64,000 nucleotides of DNA from Candidatus Bathyarchaeota archaeon (lineage in GTDB: Archaea; Thermoproteota; Bathyarchaeia; Bathyarchaeales; Bathycorpusculaceae): the NCBI GenBank assembly GCA_026014485.1, contig JAOZIE010000002.1, positions 47,081 through 111,080 on the forward strand. Direction: 5' to 3'. The position numbers and the translations under genes were made by a program. A model generated the notes under the pieces. The model saw nothing but the letters and a program-made list of their open reading frames with translations. It had not been told where the DNA came from and searched no databases. Numbering within the stretch: position 1 is the first letter of the stretch; each line of letters begins with the position of its first letter. Positions 9,524 to 22,044 of this stretch are shown here, one piece after another.

Positions 9524-9844
9524 TTATTGTTCAGCGGTTAGTTTTTCGGCTAATTCTGCGCCTTTCTGCGTAAGCTCGTAGTGCCGGTATACGTTGCGGT
9601 GGGTGAACTTGGTTTTTCCCTTGACTAAGTTGGCCCTCTCAAGGACCCTTAAGTCTTCTTCGTCTTCTTTTGAATCACTAACTTTGGTTCCCTCTATCCA
9701 AATCGTCACGTCAAGCCCCTTTAGTTGGGCAATCTTCAGAAGCAGAGTTTTGAGGCGGGGAAACTCGTCTTCAAGACGCTTCTGTTCCTGCTTGAAGTCT
9801 TCTTCAGCAACCTTCGCTAAACGGACTTTTAACTCTGCAGACAT
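9524..9844 (-). CDS. Small winged-helix protein with helical N-terminus
   Basis: 106 residues when started at the ATG at 9844, which follows an AGGTGGTG ribosome site; a longer frame from 9937 has no such signal. The first half is charged and helical (EEDFKQEQKRLEDEFPRL). The second half reads like a winged helix: a strand with WIEG, a helix EEDLRVLERANLV, then a wing ending YRHYELTQKGAELAEKL. That last motif is typical of archaeal DNA-binding winged helices. It is monocistronic. A transcriptional regulator is the likeliest role, but the target is unknown. Confidence 0.65.
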   Translation of the reverse strand: MSAELKVRLAKVAEEDFKQEQKRLEDEFPRLKTLLLKIAQLKGLDVTIWIEGTKVSDSKEDEEDLRVLERANLVKGKTKFTHRNVYRHYELTQKGAELAEKLTAEQ

Positions 9845-10123
9845 AACAACACCACCTAAAAAATTTGAGTCAGGATATTTAAGGTCAACGAAAAACGGGC
9901 AAACGGCAACGTCAACCCAAACCAAACACAAAATCAAAAAAGCAACCTAACAGATGTTCAGCAAAGTGGGGTACCCTGAAAACGAACACGCAAGTGCAAG
10001 CCAACCTATTTGGATTTTCTAATAATACTTCGATTCAGAAAAGAGGGGGGGTAGGTCGCTATTGGCTGGTTTTCAGTCCAAAAACATGAGCTTCAGAAGA
10101 ATCCCCGATTCCTGCTGATTGAG

Positions 10124-12524: not shown

Positions 12525-12851
12525 ATGAATCCAAGGTTATTTGTGGTTAAAGGCAAACACAAAAAAGATTTGCCCACAAGGAATACTGTCCGCTTCGCAA
12601 TCATAGACCAAGATAAACCCCGAAAATATCCTGAAAACTTTGTATGTATTTTGCCTCAGCATATGAACGCGGCAAATGTGGACGCCAGCATATTCGGTAA
12701 AACCTTCAAAGATAAACGGATGGACTTAGCAAAGAGGCTTCTGACTGATGCTCTCGCAACTGAAGAAGACCCCCGAATCAGAAAGGAAATCAAGGACCGC
12801 CTAAGACAGCTTTCGCCAAAGCAAACTTGGCAACCGAGACGCTTTCCGTGA
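12525..12851 (+). CDS. Hypothetical protein, 108 residues
   Basis: Starts at an ATG behind GAGAGGAAAAGGC. The product is basic with a helical C-terminus (MDLAKRLLTDALATEEDPRIRKEIKDRL) and a Trp/Arg-rich end. There is no signal peptide, membrane helix or recognised motif. The TATA box about 45 bases upstream and normal codon use support a real gene. Function unknown. Confidence 0.6.
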   Translation: MNPRLFVVKGKHKKDLPTRNTVRFAIIDQDKPRKYPENFVCILPQHMNAANVDASIFGKTFKDKRMDLAKRLLTDALATEEDPRIRKEIKDRLRQLSPKQTWQPRRFP

Positions 12852-13221
12852 GCCTCCAGCCGTCAGCTTCCATTTTCCTCCCAAAGAATTAGTGCAAAGG
12901 TCCACTTAAACGAGCATATTAATCAATTGTCAAGGAACCAGCGAGTCTACAGGTTGACGTTTAGCTTTTCCTCTTTCAGCTTCAGAATTGGGAACGTGAA
13001 AAATCGCGGGTTTACCCCACTATTTGCCTTGTTTTTCGGCATGTTCATAACGCCTTTTTGAATGGAAATCTGAAAACGGGAAAACTTGGCAGCCCGAACT
13101 GACGGCTTTTAGGTCGCTGATTTGTCTTTCCCTTTTTTGACAGCGGATTCTTTTTTGGCTAAAGTTTAAACTCTGCCGATGACAATACCTACAGAATACC
13201 TAACAGAAGAGGACGCATTCG
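12852..13221. other. Gene-free stretch before the NrdD-like gene
   Basis: 370 bases. AAAGTTTAAACTC (about 13163-13175) is the likely TATA box for the gene starting at 13222. AGCCGTCAG (12858-12866) and CTGACGGCT (13099-13107) are a widely spaced inverted repeat that may be chance. A short frame at 13179-13409 overlaps the next gene in another frame and is not credible. Confidence 0.45.
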
Positions 13222-15429
13222 ATGACGATTCTTCCCCGTGCCCGCGGCGTAAAAGTTCTCAAAGCCGTTTCGTCACCGTTGAGACTGCAAATCCTGAACT
13301 TCCTCTTCGACAAGGGCTCACTCAGCTACACGGAACTGATGAACCAGCTGAAGATGAACCCCAGCCGCGACGCAGGCAGATTCGCCTACCACCTGAAGTT
13401 TCTTCTTAAAGCCAACTTGGTGGAAGTGGATTCGGAAGCAAAAAAATACTACCTTACTGACCTTGGAAAAATGGTTCTTGACGTGGCGGACCGCGTTGAG
13501 AAGAAGGCTGTTAAACCCAAAGGTATGCTTGTGCGTACGTCGCATTTCACTTTTGAAGCTTTTGACGCTAACAAAATCGCCAACAGCCTTATCCGTGAAG
13601 GTAAAATGCCCGCTGACCAAGCGCAGAAAACCGCTAAAGAAACCGAAAAACTCTTGGTTAAATCAAAAATTAAGTATTTAACCTCCGCTTTGATACGTGA
13701 AATAGTTAATGTTCTTTTGGTAGAGAAGGGGCTTGAAGATTACCGTCATAAGCTTACTCGTCTTGGGTTGCCTGTGCATGAAGTAACCGCCTTAATCGAG
13801 GCGAAAAACCCGCTGGAAACTGGATCTGCCCTTGAAACCGCGGGAAAAAGCGTTTTCCGTGAGTACACGCTTCTGAACGTTTTACCCAGAGACATTTCAG
13901 ATGCTCACCTTTCGGGTGCGTTGCATATCGACAGTTTAAGTACTTGGATTCTTAAGCCCAGTGAGGTTATGCATGATTTAAGGTTCTTTCTGCAGAACGG
14001 TCAAAGACTTGGTTTAAATCCGTTGCAGCATGCTGAAAAGCCGCCTGAAACTTTTGAAGCTGCCTTAGCTGCGACATTTAACATGCTTTTGTTCACCCAG
14101 CGCGAGGTGAATGAAACCCAGACCGTGGAGTATTTCAACGTGTTTTTGGCGCCTTACGTGAAAGGTTTAGAGCCAGATAGGGTTAAAGAGACGCTGCGGC
14201 TTTTCATCCAGAACGTTAACCAGCATGTGGACGCTTCCTTTGGTTTGGACCTTTGCATTCCACGTTGCCTCGCCGATAAAACCGCTGTTGCCCCTCAAGG
14301 CGGAAACACAGCAAACTACGGTAGCTACGCAGAAGAAGCTAAAATTTTAACTTCGCTTTTGGTGGACATATTCATTGAGGAAAACTCGCCTAAACCCATC
14401 TTGAACCCGAAACTTATCATAAAGGCAAGTCGAGAGGTTTTCAAAGATGAAGCAGCAAACTCTGTTCTTCTCAAAGCTCATCGTTTAGCCGCTGACAAAG
14501 GCGCCGTATACTTTGCCAGCACTCCCCAGAAGGAACGCGCAACTGCGTTCTCAGCTTCAGGACTCAAACTGCAGTCTGACTTGACTGAGGATTGGGAAAC
14601 CGACACACTGCGCACAGGCTGCCTTGGCTGCGTAACCATAAATCTGCCCCGTATCCTGCATGAATGCGAAAAAGACCAAGCTAAATTCTTCAGTCTCCTA
14701 AAAGAAAGATGCGAGTTGGCGGTTCGCGCTTTAGGCATAAAAAACAGAGCCTTAAAGCAGCATGGCAAAGCCGTTTTGCCTTTCCTTATGCAGAGCAACA
14801 ACGGAGATGTATATTTTAGGCTGGAAAACTGCAGCGGCATCATAAACCTTGCGGGAATCAGCGAAACCGTGGCAGGCTTCAAAGGCAAAGTTGTCAGCCC
14901 AGAGGAAACCGCCAAATTTGCTTCAGAGTTGGCACAGAACATGCAAACCTACGTGAACAAGCTGGGCAGAAGACACAGTAAACGTCTGTTTCCCGCTGTT
15001 TTAGGCAGCGCTGAAGCTTCTGCTAGGTTGGCACAGTTAGATGTGGAAAGATATGGCGTGGCGAAAGTGAAGTTTTCTGGAACTCGAGAAAAACCCTTCT
15101 ACGTCACCACACGGAGGATGCAGCTTCAGGCAGGTAATTTCCTGTCGGTTCCCAGTGAACAATTGGAGCAGCAGCAAAAACTGAAAATCCTAACTGCGGG
15201 TGCAAACCTGACTGTTGTGGATTTGGACAGCTTGGAAGTTAAGCCTGAAGACCTCCTGAAGTTAACCCTGAGCCTGATGGAGAACCACGGAACCGAATTC
15301 CTCACCTACAACCGTGTCGTTACTTACTGTAGCAACTGCCGAAAAAGCTGGTTCGGTAACCTACACAAATGCGCTTCATGCGGCTCCATGGGCACGCTTG
15401 TGGAGTTTGACCGATTCAAAGACACCTAA
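13222..15429 (+). CDS. HTH + ATP-cone + NrdD-like protein lacking catalytic radical sites
   Basis: 735 residues. Residues about 1-75 form an ArsR-like winged helix (VSSPLRLQILNFLFDKGSLS; GRFAYHLKFLLKANLV). Residues about 100-190 are an ATP-cone-like nucleotide-sensing domain (FEAFDANKIANSLIREGK). Residues about 195-690 follow the anaerobic ribonucleotide reductase (NrdD) body: DLRFFLQNGQRLG, FNVFLAPYVKGL and VTINLPRIL. The end is a four-cysteine zinc ribbon (C703, C706, C717, C720). After it, NrdD proteins carry the glycyl-radical RVxGY loop; this protein stops at EFDRFKDT. The fingertip position that normally holds the thiyl-radical cysteine (CCRLRL-type) reads FSASGLKL (about 443-450). It is therefore probably not a reductase. 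The HTH and ATP-cone suggest a nucleotide-sensing regulator (inference). ATG 13222 follows GAAGAGGACG. Confidence 0.8.
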   Translation: MTILPRARGVKVLKAVSSPLRLQILNFLFDKGSLSYTELMNQLKMNPSRDAGRFAYHLKFLLKANLVEVDSEAKKYYLTDLGKMVLDVADRVEKKAVKPKGMLVRTSHFTFEAFDANKIANSLIREGKMPADQAQKTAKETEKLLVKSKIKYLTSALIREIVNVLLVEKGLEDYRHKLTRLGLPVHEVTALIEAKNPLETGSALETAGKSVFREYTLLNVLPRDISDAHLSGALHIDSLSTWILKPSEVMHDLRFFLQNGQRLGLNPLQHAEKPPETFEAALAATFNMLLFTQREVNETQTVEYFNVFLAPYVKGLEPDRVKETLRLFIQNVNQHVDASFGLDLCIPRCLADKTAVAPQGGNTANYGSYAEEAKILTSLLVDIFIEENSPKPILNPKLIIKASREVFKDEAANSVLLKAHRLAADKGAVYFASTPQKERATAFSASGLKLQSDLTEDWETDTLRTGCLGCVTINLPRILHECEKDQAKFFSLLKERCELAVRALGIKNRALKQHGKAVLPFLMQSNNGDVYFRLENCSGIINLAGISETVAGFKGKVVSPEETAKFASELAQNMQTYVNKLGRRHSKRLFPAVLGSAEASARLAQLDVERYGVAKVKFSGTREKPFYVTTRRMQLQAGNFLSVPSEQLEQQQKLKILTAGANLTVVDLDSLEVKPEDLLKLTLSLMENHGTEFLTYNRVVTYCSNCRKSWFGNLHKCASCGSMGTLVEFDRFKDT

Positions 15430-15433
15430 CAGT

Positions 15434-16363
<930 letters not shown>

Positions 16364-16742: not shown

Positions 16743-16889
16743 ATGACTTCAAACTCTTCTTTTTTAGACAGTTTGCTCAGAAGCTACGGCTTCTCAGAGA
16801 TAGAAATCAGCGTGGTCAACGAGTGCTGCCGCAGTTCAGTCAAAAAAAGCAAAGCATCATCAGTGGAGGCAACTGCAGCCTATGCCTAG
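16743..16889 (+). CDS. Tiny protein, 48 residues, translationally coupled
   Basis: ATG at 16743 follows directly on the TAA of the previous gene, and the stop at 16889 overlaps the next gene's start by 8 bases. The product contains SLLRSYGFSEIEISVVNECC and a Ser/Ala-rich end. Its reality rests on the tight packing and the protein-like composition of the first 30 residues. The GGAGG inside its 3' end (16864-16868) is the ribosome site for the downstream gene. Function unknown. Confidence 0.5.
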   Translation: MTSNSSFLDSLLRSYGFSEIEISVVNECCRSSVKKSKASSVEATAAYA

Positions 16890-17124
16890 AGCACTTGTTT
16901 TCATAAACACCCTGTACAGTTCAGCTGACTTAGTTAGAGATTTGGCGAGGGTGGAGGGCGTAAGAGAAGCGCACTCGTCACGCGGACTCTACGATGCAGT
17001 GGCGATGGTGCAGGCTGAATCATTTGGCCAAGTCAAGGAGATTATATCCAAACGCATTCAAGGCTTAGAAAACGTCAAATCCACTTTAACATTGACACTT
17101 ATCGAACCAACTCCCACAACCTAA
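16882..17124 (+). CDS. Stand-alone Lrp/AsnC ligand-binding (RAM) domain protein
   Basis: 80 residues matching the C-terminal effector domain of Lrp/AsnC regulators (RALVFINTLYSSADLVRDL; VREAHSSRGLYDAVAMVQAE; STLTLTLIEP), with no DNA-binding domain. Stand-alone RAM domains are common in archaea; they form oligomers and bind small molecules such as amino acids. It is the third gene of the 16545-17124 unit. GGAGG lies 14 bases before the ATG. It may modulate a full-length Lrp protein encoded elsewhere (inference). Confidence 0.85.
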   Translation: MPRALVFINTLYSSADLVRDLARVEGVREAHSSRGLYDAVAMVQAESFGQVKEIISKRIQGLENVKSTLTLTLIEPTPTT

Positions 17125-18230: not shown

Positions 18231-19778
18231 TTATCTGTCTAGCATAACTGGTTTTTCATTTTTCCCCATCTTGGCGGGGTACTGGTCCAGCAGCATGCGC
18301 TCTTCAGGTTTCTTGCTTAGCACAACAGGCTCCAGTTTCTGTGCCAAAGCCAAAGCGGACTCCAACTTGCTAGCACGCTCTGCATAAACCTCAAAAAGCA
18401 CATCCCCTTTTGCAACCGAGTCACCCAATTTTGCATGTAGTAAAATCCCTGAACCTGGTTCTTTGGGTGTGCCTGCGGCTCGTGCTACCTGCACAAATCC
18501 CTCCGTTTTCATCCACAGCACTCTGCCTCGCTTTTCAGCGCGGACCTCTGCATGTTCTGGTCCGATAGGTATGTCTTCGGGTTTAACGTTTGGGTTGCCG
18601 CCCTGAGCCTCGATGATTTGTCGCAGTTTACACTCTGCCTTACCCGAACGTATCATCTCTTGGGCTTTTTGCCGCCCGTTTTTCTCGCCGACTAACTCGA
18701 AAAGTACGCCTGCGATGCTAACTGCTTTATCATGAACATCAGCGGGGCCGTTCCCCATCAAAGTGTTGAGGGCTTCGCGGGCTTCCAAAGCAGGTCCAAT
18801 GCCGCATCCCAAAGGCTGGTCCCCAAACGTCAAGGCACAATGCACTTCGATGCCTAAGTGGTTGCCCAGATGCACAAAATCCGCTGCTAAGCTGTACGCT
18901 TCTGTGGGCGTTTTGATTTTTGCCCCCGAACCCGTCGGGATATCCACCACCAAATGGGTAGCGCCCATGGCTTTCTTTTTGCTCATAATCGACGGCAGAA
19001 GCATAGGGTCAATCCCCAGCGGATACTCTACCCGAATAAACAGGTCATCGGCTGGAGCCAACTCCAAAGCGCCGCCCCAGACAAGGCAGCCGCCAGTTTT
19101 CTTTACCACCGACTGGATTTCTTCAATTTTCAAGTTGACGGGGCAGAGGGTTTCCACGCGGTCAGCGGTTCCAGCGGGCGACGTGATGGCTCGCGAGGAG
19201 GTTTTGGGAATCGTGAAGCCCGCAGCCGCCACGATGGGCACCAAAATCATGGAGGTTTTGTCGCCTGGGATGCCGCCGATGCTGTGCTTGTCCAAAATGG
19301 GCGGTTTGCCAAAGCTTAGGGTCTTGCCGGTTTCTACCATGGCGCGGCTCATGGCTTCCGTTTCGCTCATGCTTAACCCGTAAATTTTCAGCGCGGTCAG
19401 GAATGCGGAGACTTCTATGTCACTGAGGTGCTGCTCTACCACGTCTTTGACGATGGTGAAGACCTGGGCGTTTCGGAGCCGCTCCCCCCGCAGCTTTGCC
19501 CGCACGTTACCCAAAGACTCAGGCATAGGCGCCAACTCAACATCAACAACTTCGCCTCCAGAAGCACCAAGAACCTGAGCGATTTCTGCGTAGAACCAGA
19601 TGCGGTCAGATGGGAAATCCGCCGCTAAATTAGCCATGGCAATTACTTCTTTGCCGCCATACGCGATTTTTACGCGGTCAGAGGAATGCACACCCAACAA
19701 CGCGGCGGTTTCGTCGTTGAGGATGACGATGCGTTTGCCGCCTGCGGTTATGTTTAGAACTCCAGCGGTAAGCTCCAT
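18231..19778 (-). CDS. deoA: AMP phosphorylase
   Basis: Phosphorolyses AMP (and other NMPs) to ribose 1,5-bisphosphate and base, the first step of the archaeal AMP pathway. The archaeal-specific N-terminal domain (about 1-80) precedes the thymidine-phosphorylase fold with GKPPILDKHSIGGIPGDK (phosphate site), SSRAITSPAGTADR, KKAMGATHLVVDIPTGSG and a C-terminal biotinyl-like domain. Length is 515 residues. ATG 19778 (behind GGGAGTGA) is preferred, because a longer frame from 19841 would begin upstream of the TATA box at about 19818-19833. It is encoded near RuBisCO and ribose-1,5-bisphosphate isomerase, which use its product. Confidence 0.94.
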   Translation of the reverse strand: MELTAGVLNITAGGKRIVILNDETAALLGVHSSDRVKIAYGGKEVIAMANLAADFPSDRIWFYAEIAQVLGASGGEVVDVELAPMPESLGNVRAKLRGERLRNAQVFTIVKDVVEQHLSDIEVSAFLTALKIYGLSMSETEAMSRAMVETGKTLSFGKPPILDKHSIGGIPGDKTSMILVPIVAAAGFTIPKTSSRAITSPAGTADRVETLCPVNLKIEEIQSVVKKTGGCLVWGGALELAPADDLFIRVEYPLGIDPMLLPSIMSKKKAMGATHLVVDIPTGSGAKIKTPTEAYSLAADFVHLGNHLGIEVHCALTFGDQPLGCGIGPALEAREALNTLMGNGPADVHDKAVSIAGVLFELVGEKNGRQKAQEMIRSGKAECKLRQIIEAQGGNPNVKPEDIPIGPEHAEVRAEKRGRVLWMKTEGFVQVARAAGTPKEPGSGILLHAKLGDSVAKGDVLFEVYAERASKLESALALAQKLEPVVLSKKPEERMLLDQYPAKMGKNEKPVMLDR

Positions 19779-19817
19779 GCAACTCACTCCCACGCTTTCT
19801 ACATGGATAAGGGGATA

Positions 19818-19833
19818 GTTAAAGATTTTAAAT
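19818..19833 (-). promoter_or_regulatory. Probable promoter of AMP phosphorylase
   Basis: On the minus strand TTTAAAATCTTTAAC forms a TATA region about 45 bases before the chosen start. The same stretch with its surroundings (19793-19833) recurs upstream of RuBisCO at 20742-20783. Confidence 0.55.
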
Positions 19834-19965
19834 TCGTCCAAGCGGCGATGTCACCCGTGCCCATCTACCCTTTCTTTTTTCAACTGAATATGGTCATTTA
19901 ACACTGAAGGGGCGCAACCGCGTTTTGGGGACCCTCTTCTCAAATTTCTTGAGCAACTTAGTGCC

Positions 19966-20784: not shown

Positions 20785-20820
20785 GAACGTCGTTCATCTA
20801 TGTGCAGGAGACTGACCGTT

Positions 20821-22044
20821 TTGAAGTATCTGGACTTTGTGGATTTAGCTTACAAGCCTAAAGACTCCGACTTACTCTGCACTTTTACTCTAGAACCCGA
20901 AGGCATGGACCTGAGGGAGGCGACAGGCGCCATAGCCGCGGAAAGCAGCGTAGGCACATGGACCCAACTCACCACGGAAAAGCCCTATGTGCAGAAGCTC
21001 GCCGCGCGTGTCTACTCTTTGGAGGGCAATACAGCAAAAATCGCCTACCCCATTGAGCTCTTCGAAGACGGCAACATGCCCAACATCCTGAGCAGTGTAG
21101 CGGGGAACGTGTTTGGGCTCAAGGCACTGCTGAACCTGAAACTCACCGACCTCCAGCTGCCAGCCGACCTTGTAGCGAGCTTTAGGGGTCCACGGTACGG
21201 CATCGAAGGCATCCGCAAGCTGCTCAAAGTCACGGACCGCCCGCTGGTGGGCACCATAATTAAGCCGAAGCTGGGGCTCAAATCTGAAGACCACGCCGAA
21301 GTCGCCTACGAGGCTTGGGCGGGCGGCTGCGACATAGTCAAGGACGACGAAAACCTGAGCAGCCAAAAATTCAACCCGTTTGAGGAGCGGCTTCACGAAA
21401 CCCTGGACGCCCGAGACCGCGCCCAAGACGAAACAGGCGAGAAAAAAGTGTACATGATAAACATAACCGCCGAAACCGAAACCATGCTAGAACGCGCCGA
21501 CATGGTGGTGGACCACGGAGGCGAATACATCATGGTGGACATCCTCACCTGCGGCTGGGCAGCACTACAAACGTTACGAAATCAGGATTACAAGTTGGTG
21601 ATTCACGCTCACAGGGCAGGACACGCCGCCTTCACCAAGAACCCCAAACACGGCATCTCCATGCGCCCCATCGCCACAATAGCCCGAGCAATAGGCGTAG
21701 ACCAACTACACGTCGGAACCGTAGTCGGCAAAATGAGCGAAACCAAATCTGAGGTGCTGGAAAACATCGGCGCCTGCAAAAAGGAGATGCATGGACTCGA
21801 ACCAGTCATGCCCGTAGCTTCAGGGGGCATTCATCCGCGGCTGGTTCCCGCGTTGCTGGAGGTCTTCGGCAAAGACGTAGTTATCCAAGCAGGCGGAGGC
21901 ATCCACGGACACCCCGACGGCACCAAACCAGGCGCGCTGGCGATGCGACAAGCCGTAGACGCAGCACTACAGGACATACCCCTCGAAGAATACGCCAAAG
22001 AACACGTGGAGTTGTGTGACGCCCTAGAAACGTGGAAAGCATAA
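20821..22044 (+). CDS. rbcL: Ribulose-1,5-bisphosphate carboxylase, form III
   Basis: Carboxylates ribulose 1,5-bisphosphate to two 3-phosphoglycerates; form III enzymes work in AMP salvage rather than a Calvin cycle. With TTG 20821 the protein has 407 residues beginning KYLDFVDLAYKP like archaeal homologs, behind AGGAG at a 10-base spacing. An ATG at 20800 would add seven residues but has no ribosome site. Active-site elements are present: AAESSVGTW, GTIIKPKLGL (catalytic Lys), GGCDIVKDDENL (carbamylated Lys, Asp, Glu), HAHRAGHAAF, loop 6 GTVVGKM, ASGGIHP and AGGGIHGHP. No small-subunit or phosphoribulokinase gene is nearby, as expected for form III. Confidence 0.96.
   Translation: MKYLDFVDLAYKPKDSDLLCTFTLEPEGMDLREATGAIAAESSVGTWTQLTTEKPYVQKLAARVYSLEGNTAKIAYPIELFEDGNMPNILSSVAGNVFGLKALLNLKLTDLQLPADLVASFRGPRYGIEGIRKLLKVTDRPLVGTIIKPKLGLKSEDHAEVAYEAWAGGCDIVKDDENLSSQKFNPFEERLHETLDARDRAQDETGEKKVYMINITAETETMLERADMVVDHGGEYIMVDILTCGWAALQTLRNQDYKLVIHAHRAGHAAFTKNPKHGISMRPIATIARAIGVDQLHVGTVVGKMSETKSEVLENIGACKKEMHGLEPVMPVASGGIHPRLVPALLEVFGKDVVIQAGGGIHGHPDGTKPGALAMRQAVDAALQDIPLEEYAKEHVELCDALETWKA

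Follow-up and report, generated by a model that had tools for sequence, protein, structure and literature searches.

The window, the whole stretch of 64,000 nucleotides that was analysed, carries at 13222-15429 a coding sequence of 735 amino acids with an ATG start, called as an ORF and matched by 13 close orthologs. Features are on the forward strand unless stated otherwise. The N-terminal part (residues 10-95, 13249-13506) resembles an ArsR-like helix-turn-helix (HTH), with Pfam matches to DUF7347 at residues 12-87 (32.8 bits, above the curated cut-off) and to HTH_5/ArsR at residues 18-68 (30.9 bits against a cut-off of 22). It is followed by an ATP-cone of the archaeal 'VRTS' subtype (residues 102-190, 13525-13791; Pfam match at 104-174, 28.7 bits against a cut-off of 25.8), by a barrel body of the anaerobic reductase NrdD that appears catalytically inactive (residues 205-700, 13834-15321), and by a zinc ribbon with the pattern CxxC...CxxC (residues 701-727, 15322-15402), recognised from the sequence and the alignment. 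The NRDD profile (PF13597) covered residues 208-724 with 192.6 bits, above its curated cut-off. The NrdD equivalog TIGR02487 reached 212.8 bits, under its cut-off of 326.35, and the NrdR profile TIGR00244 did not match the protein. The closest PDB relatives by sequence were NrdDs, and 32 class III NrdD chains took the top ranks in a Foldseek search with the AlphaFold model, which was of low confidence (mean pLDDT 56).

The NrdD fold, ATP-cone and zinc ribbon claimed in the initial annotation were therefore confirmed. Its claim of an ArsR-like winged helix at the N-terminus stood as far as the profiles go, both of them scoring over cut-off, and less so for the fold, as the whole-chain and N-terminal models made from 14 close sequences were of low confidence; the putative winged helix is thus supported by the sequence profiles. 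The putative recognition-helix region reads RDAGRFAYHLK, and 80% or more of the 71 relatives described below retain the pattern G.F.YHL. Matches to PADLOC Csa3/CARF models lay chiefly within the HTH. The 13 orthologs (56-65% identity), which span Bathyarchaeota, Bathycorpusculum, Nitrososphaerota and Crenarchaeota, are of equal length and share the C-terminal end FDRFxST.

Several other genes of the window may be mentioned here. An ORF of 108 amino acids without a Pfam match precedes the HTH gene at a short distance (12525-12851), and another of 137 amino acids, also without a Pfam match, is found at 9524-9937 on the reverse strand. A stand-alone Lrp/AsnC ligand-binding domain of 80 amino acids lacking an HTH is encoded at 16882-17124. 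AMP phosphorylase (18231-19841, reverse strand) and type III RuBisCO (20800-22044), which both belong to the archaeal pathway of AMP salvage, are encoded near the HTH gene and its neighbour pyrB.

Loss of reductase residues and origin of the family

An alignment was made of the protein with intact NrdDs, namely that of the window genome and those of its relatives. In the finger loop, the S(M/Q)CCRL of intact NrdDs is replaced by FSASGLKL in the window protein (residues 443-450, 14548-14571), so that CC is changed to AS and the thiyl-radical Cys is missing. This finger Cys is required in all characterised ribonucleotide reductases (RNRs; PMC9669993). The motif RPFC, containing the equivalent of Cys79, reads KPSE, with Glu248 (13963-13965) in place of the Cys; this second active-site loss had not been mentioned in the initial annotation. 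The glycyl-radical loop R(V/I)xGY is missing as well, and the chain ends with FDRFKDT and a stop codon (15403-15429) at the position expected for the loop. The absence of both radical positions, as originally claimed, was thus upheld by alignment to intact enzymes. A separate glycyl-radical ORF was sought downstream of the gene and not found; convergent pyrB lies 5 bp past the stop. Cys467, in the sequence TGCLG, might have taken over as the radical Cys but was rejected, as it is not conserved in the wider family.

Homologs with the same losses, for which the initial annotation had proposed a search, were found throughout the phylum: they comprised 71 relatives, spread over 35 groups of Thermoproteota at family level. 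The finger-loop Cys and the Cys79-equivalent were both gone in all 71 of these HTH-bearing proteins, with the finger Cys being present in the aligned intact NrdDs. The C-terminal tail showed a graded decay across the family. A scar of the glycyl loop remains in several groups, with the Gly itself still there in f19 and f32; the tail is truncated in the window's family (f1) and in ammonia oxidisers, and in f24, f28 and f39 the zinc ribbon has been lost besides the glycyl loop. Compared with class III NrdD (PF13597/TIGR02487), these proteins have a homologous barrel, ATP-cone and zinc ribbon but lack the finger Cys, the Cys79-equivalent and the glycyl loop, carry the additional HTH, and, as seen for the window protein, stay under the TIGR02487 cut-off. 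Judged by these residues, the HTH-NrdD family is catalytically dead, though homologous to NrdD.

In a tree built on the ATP-cone and body by a quick method, with SH-aLRT as the sole support measure, the 58 HTH representatives formed a single clade (SH-aLRT 100), sister to active archaeal-type NrdD that bears the same VRTS ATP-cone. On this phylogeny the family is shown to have arisen once, from an archaeal NrdD. Mean pairwise identity within the family was 56% in the ATP-cone and 44% in the HTH, as against 31% and 26% in the N-terminal and C-terminal halves of the barrel and 23% in the finger-loop region. Such a pattern would be expected were sensing and DNA binding the functions under selection. 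In the lid of the ATP-cone, the sequence KRDG, with its basic nucleotide-contacting pair, is replaced by VRTS, as in active archaeal NrdDs; nucleotide binding by the family's ATP-cone is therefore putative, even though active enzymes share the change.

The survey comprised 398 genomes, all of Thermoproteota. The family profile matched in 258 of them, with about 220 strong family hits (E below about 1e-40, counted from the match table), the remainder being mostly NrdD. Intact NrdD usually coexists with the HTH protein in anaerobic lineages. The families f18, f50 and f47 are ammonia oxidisers, with amoA present in 8/8 of their genomes tested. Their single NRDD-profile match was weak (about 1e-7 to 1e-24), and so they carry the dead copy and no working NrdD. 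In one f1 member (G348:C39:15862-18033) the HTH gene is interrupted by an in-frame TAA, which could be explained either by a sequencing error or by decay.

Neighbouring genes and NrdR

The neighbour survey, likewise proposed in the initial annotation, placed RNR genes of two classes behind the HTH gene. A working RNR was found directly downstream on the same strand at 25 of 60 mapped loci, in 10 of the 35 families, a count that admits a small redoxin gene in between. The downstream enzyme is an archaeal-type NrdD in f5, f6, f8 and f36, and the B12-dependent class II NrdJ, assigned by TIGR02504 above its cut-off, in the ammonia oxidisers f18, f50 and f47 and in f60 and f9. The ATP-cone motif of nrdJ was next downstream of the HTH gene in all 28 f18 loci. 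In f4 the NrdD behind the HTH gene is of archaeal type in most genomes and of classical type in G154. The linked RNRs belong to at least four distinct reductase types, though the families are not independent. In f4 and f8 the HTH gene and NrdD are separated by a small gene for a CPRC redoxin (L069, L139, L206-L209). At the G154 locus (L069) this redoxin is cut short and followed by the classical NrdD, as if the enzyme had been exchanged while the regulator stayed.

The other frequent neighbour, in many families, is pyrB or pyrI, usually convergent. It adjoins the HTH gene in all 13 close orthologs and in the window, where pyrB, encoding aspartate carbamoyltransferase by Pfam match, is the convergent syntenic neighbour at 15434-16363 on the reverse strand. 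The HTH gene is not beside an RNR in the window or in several other families.

The window genome has true reductase genes, which had been overlooked initially: an nrdR-nrdD-nrdG operon on contig 11, with the radical motifs intact, and a class II nrdJ on contig 9. The only TIGR00244 match in the genome was on contig 11. NrdR has been called rare in archaea (PMC9110341), and TIGR00244 matched in 36 of the 398 genomes, 35 of them in f1, and was absent from 362. The nrdR promoters of the window's family (L014; L173-L192) contain, when read by eye, paired NrdR-box-like repeats TAGTGT...ACACTA, which suggests that a bacterial-type NrdR circuit was acquired by these archaea. In the window genome, where NrdR is present and the HTH gene lies away from RNR, the HTH protein is not a substitute for NrdR. 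Of the f1 genomes, six (92-97% complete) have no PF02867 reductase and retain the HTH gene, and so its target in f1 cannot be nrdJ alone.

Promoter elements and candidate operators

A conserved promoter element, TAAAGTTTAAACTCTG, was found at 13160-13175 in comparisons of upstream regions of the window's family. It contains AGTTTAAACT (13163-13172), which may be a TATA box or an operator. The core GTTTAAAC occurred in 16 of 22 upstream regions of this family, as against a maximum of 6 for an 8-mer in shuffled sequences. The 16-mer TAAAGTTTAAACTCTG has a single exact copy in the window genome. Given the lack of a second perfect copy, and since AGTTTAAACT could not be separated from a TATA box, it was not adopted as an operator of this family.

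A candidate was found in the ammonia-oxidising family f18, whose genomes are Nitrosopumilaceae-like. In the 290-bp regions upstream of the HTH gene at 28 loci, TGATC in either orientation occurred 107 times, as against a shuffled mean of 35 and maximum of 53, and 80 copies (shuffled, 27) were counted between the HTH gene and nrdJ. At eight f18 loci of 10 kb the density was 10.8 per kb upstream of the HTH gene and 7.4 per kb upstream of nrdJ, compared with 2.2 per kb in other intergenic DNA and 2.6 per kb in coding DNA. Pairs on the same strand were mostly spaced 10-11, 20-22, 31 or 40-42 bp apart and inverted pairs mostly 22 bp apart, some of the counts being inflated by related promoters. Such spacing is as expected for cooperative binding on one face of the helix, and the repeats can be regarded as a candidate operator. 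Across ten whole genomes, AAAAMTGATCHAAA was present in 2-7 copies per genome, yet in 8 of the ten at least one copy lay in the roughly 300 bp preceding the HTH gene; the other copies inspected were mostly inside coding regions.

The TGATC repeats were seen in f18 only, and a search for a common operator in the other families did not find one. As a class III-linked operator, TTATACAA/TGTATAAA was present in 7 of 8 intergenic regions but in only 1 of 8 held-out nrdD promoters of f2, and was rejected. Scans of the upstream regions for inverted repeats remained at or near shuffled levels. In f24, two nrdD promoters (L210, L211) carry two TTGGAYACSGYGTCCAA-type palindromes 49 bp apart and three others (L212-L214) carry one TTGGATGGATWATCCATCCAA palindrome each; in genome G199 the perfect matches of the f24-type palindrome were found solely at nrdD. 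These palindromes are strong, yet they are missing from the HTH-gene promoters of f24 and were set aside as evidence for the regulator.

Proposed role in the control of reductase genes

Taken together, the data make it probable that the HTH-NrdD family is a transcription factor of enzymatic origin that senses nucleotides and controls the reductase genes of archaea lacking NrdR. The alignment and the tree show that one ancestral duplicate of an archaeal NrdD acquired the putative winged helix at its N-terminus and gave up radical chemistry. The ATP-cone, perhaps together with the old specificity site of the barrel, could then read the levels of ATP and dATP or of dNTPs, and nucleotide binding could shift the state of the dimer or oligomer. 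The HTHs would bind repeated half-sites in the promoter of the HTH gene itself and at the reductase gene that follows it, and repression or activation would tune reductase expression to the dNTP supply. NrdR is absent from most of the Thermoproteota that bear the HTH gene, and there the HTH protein would be the RNR regulator. In the window's family, with NrdR acquired alongside nrdDG, it probably keeps an autoregulatory or a secondary nucleotide-linked role.

The suggestion of the initial annotation that the protein is an independent route to the job of NrdR is thus supported in part: for the family, which is dead, linked to RNR, widespread where NrdR is absent and furnished with repeats in f18, but not for the window genome, with its NrdR and no adjacent RNR. 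At the level of the family, an NrdR-like role is well supported by the dead catalysis, the conservation of the HTH and ATP-cone, the linkage to two classes of RNR, the scarcity of NrdR and the candidate operator in f18. A wider proposal is evenly balanced: that this is a hitherto undescribed, phylum-wide class of archaeal transcription factor, evolved once from an inactivated RNR, which would be the chief regulator of class II and III RNR genes in response to dNTPs where NrdR is missing and which, in marine-type ammonia oxidisers, would bind cooperatively to TGATC half-sites in helical phase.

The operon position with RNR and a body derived from NrdD, which is dimeric in published structures (PMC11226230), would also suit a partner of reductases at the protein level, an inactive subunit associated with active NrdD or NrdJ and controlling their allosteric state, the HTH being mainly autoregulatory. 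We consider this unlikely, since the ammonia oxidisers lack an NrdD with which it could associate and class II NrdJ is distantly related, and since the HTH is retained where the barrel is poorly conserved and even where, in f24, f28 and f39, the zinc ribbon is gone. It is similarly improbable that the target, at least in Bathyarchaeia, is pyrimidine synthesis (pyrBI) or a broader set of nucleotide genes and not the reductases. The synteny with pyrB or pyrI would agree with this, but the adjacent pyrB is mostly convergent and so shares no promoter with the HTH gene, the class II-linked ammonia oxidisers keep the HTH gene mostly without an adjoining pyrB, and the TGATC repeats sit at the HTH gene and nrdJ. 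A decaying gene, or one with an unrelated DNA-binding role, might account for the variable barrel and the stop codon in G348, but is very doubtful for a frame that is open and conserved phylum-wide with strong constraint on the HTH and ATP-cone. That the protein is still a reductase, working by an unconventional radical mechanism or with a glycyl-radical part supplied separately, is scarcely credible despite the NRDD profile covering the whole body and the Gly left in the decayed loop of a few relatives, as both Cys residues are missing from every member and an intact NrdD usually accompanies it in anaerobic lineages.

The proposed regulator would resemble NrdR, the zinc ribbon and ATP-cone repressor of RNR genes in bacteria, in joining an ATP-cone to a putative DNA-binding module, in standing next to RNR operons of several classes (in the family, though not for the window copy) and perhaps in repeated operator sites, for which the f18 repeats are candidates. 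The two are nevertheless unrelated, and TIGR00244 does not match: DNA is bound by the zinc ribbon in NrdR and would be bound here by a predicted winged helix, a whole dead NrdD barrel is added, and the phyletic range is different. With ArsR/HTH_5 one-component regulators the family has in common the N-terminal HTH profile match, but their effector part is a metal or small-molecule site within the HTH, whereas here it would be the ATP-cone and reductase body. BirA, NadR and PutA are enzyme-derived transcription factors that sense their own pathway. The HTH-NrdD protein would likewise be a regulator derived from a metabolic enzyme, but one in which the enzymatic site has been lost wholly. To our knowledge, no RNR-derived transcription factor has been known, and no published description of the combination of HTH, ATP-cone and dead NrdD was found in the open-access literature. 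NrdR is missing from 362 of the 398 Thermoproteota genomes, and the family is a concrete candidate for the control of DNA-precursor synthesis in such archaea, with known genes and operons and, in one lineage, a motif in the DNA. If the proposal is true, the family would offer a clean example of how an allosteric enzyme can be reused to control the genes of its pathway, and this across two reductase classes.

The ATP-cone was reportedly described as a mobile regulatory domain by Aravind, Wolf and Koonin in 2000. Another combination was met in passing on contig 5 of genome G000 (L020:826-1680), where a protein of 284 amino acids joins an ATP-cone to an Mrr-like restriction endonuclease domain and an AF1548-like C-terminus.
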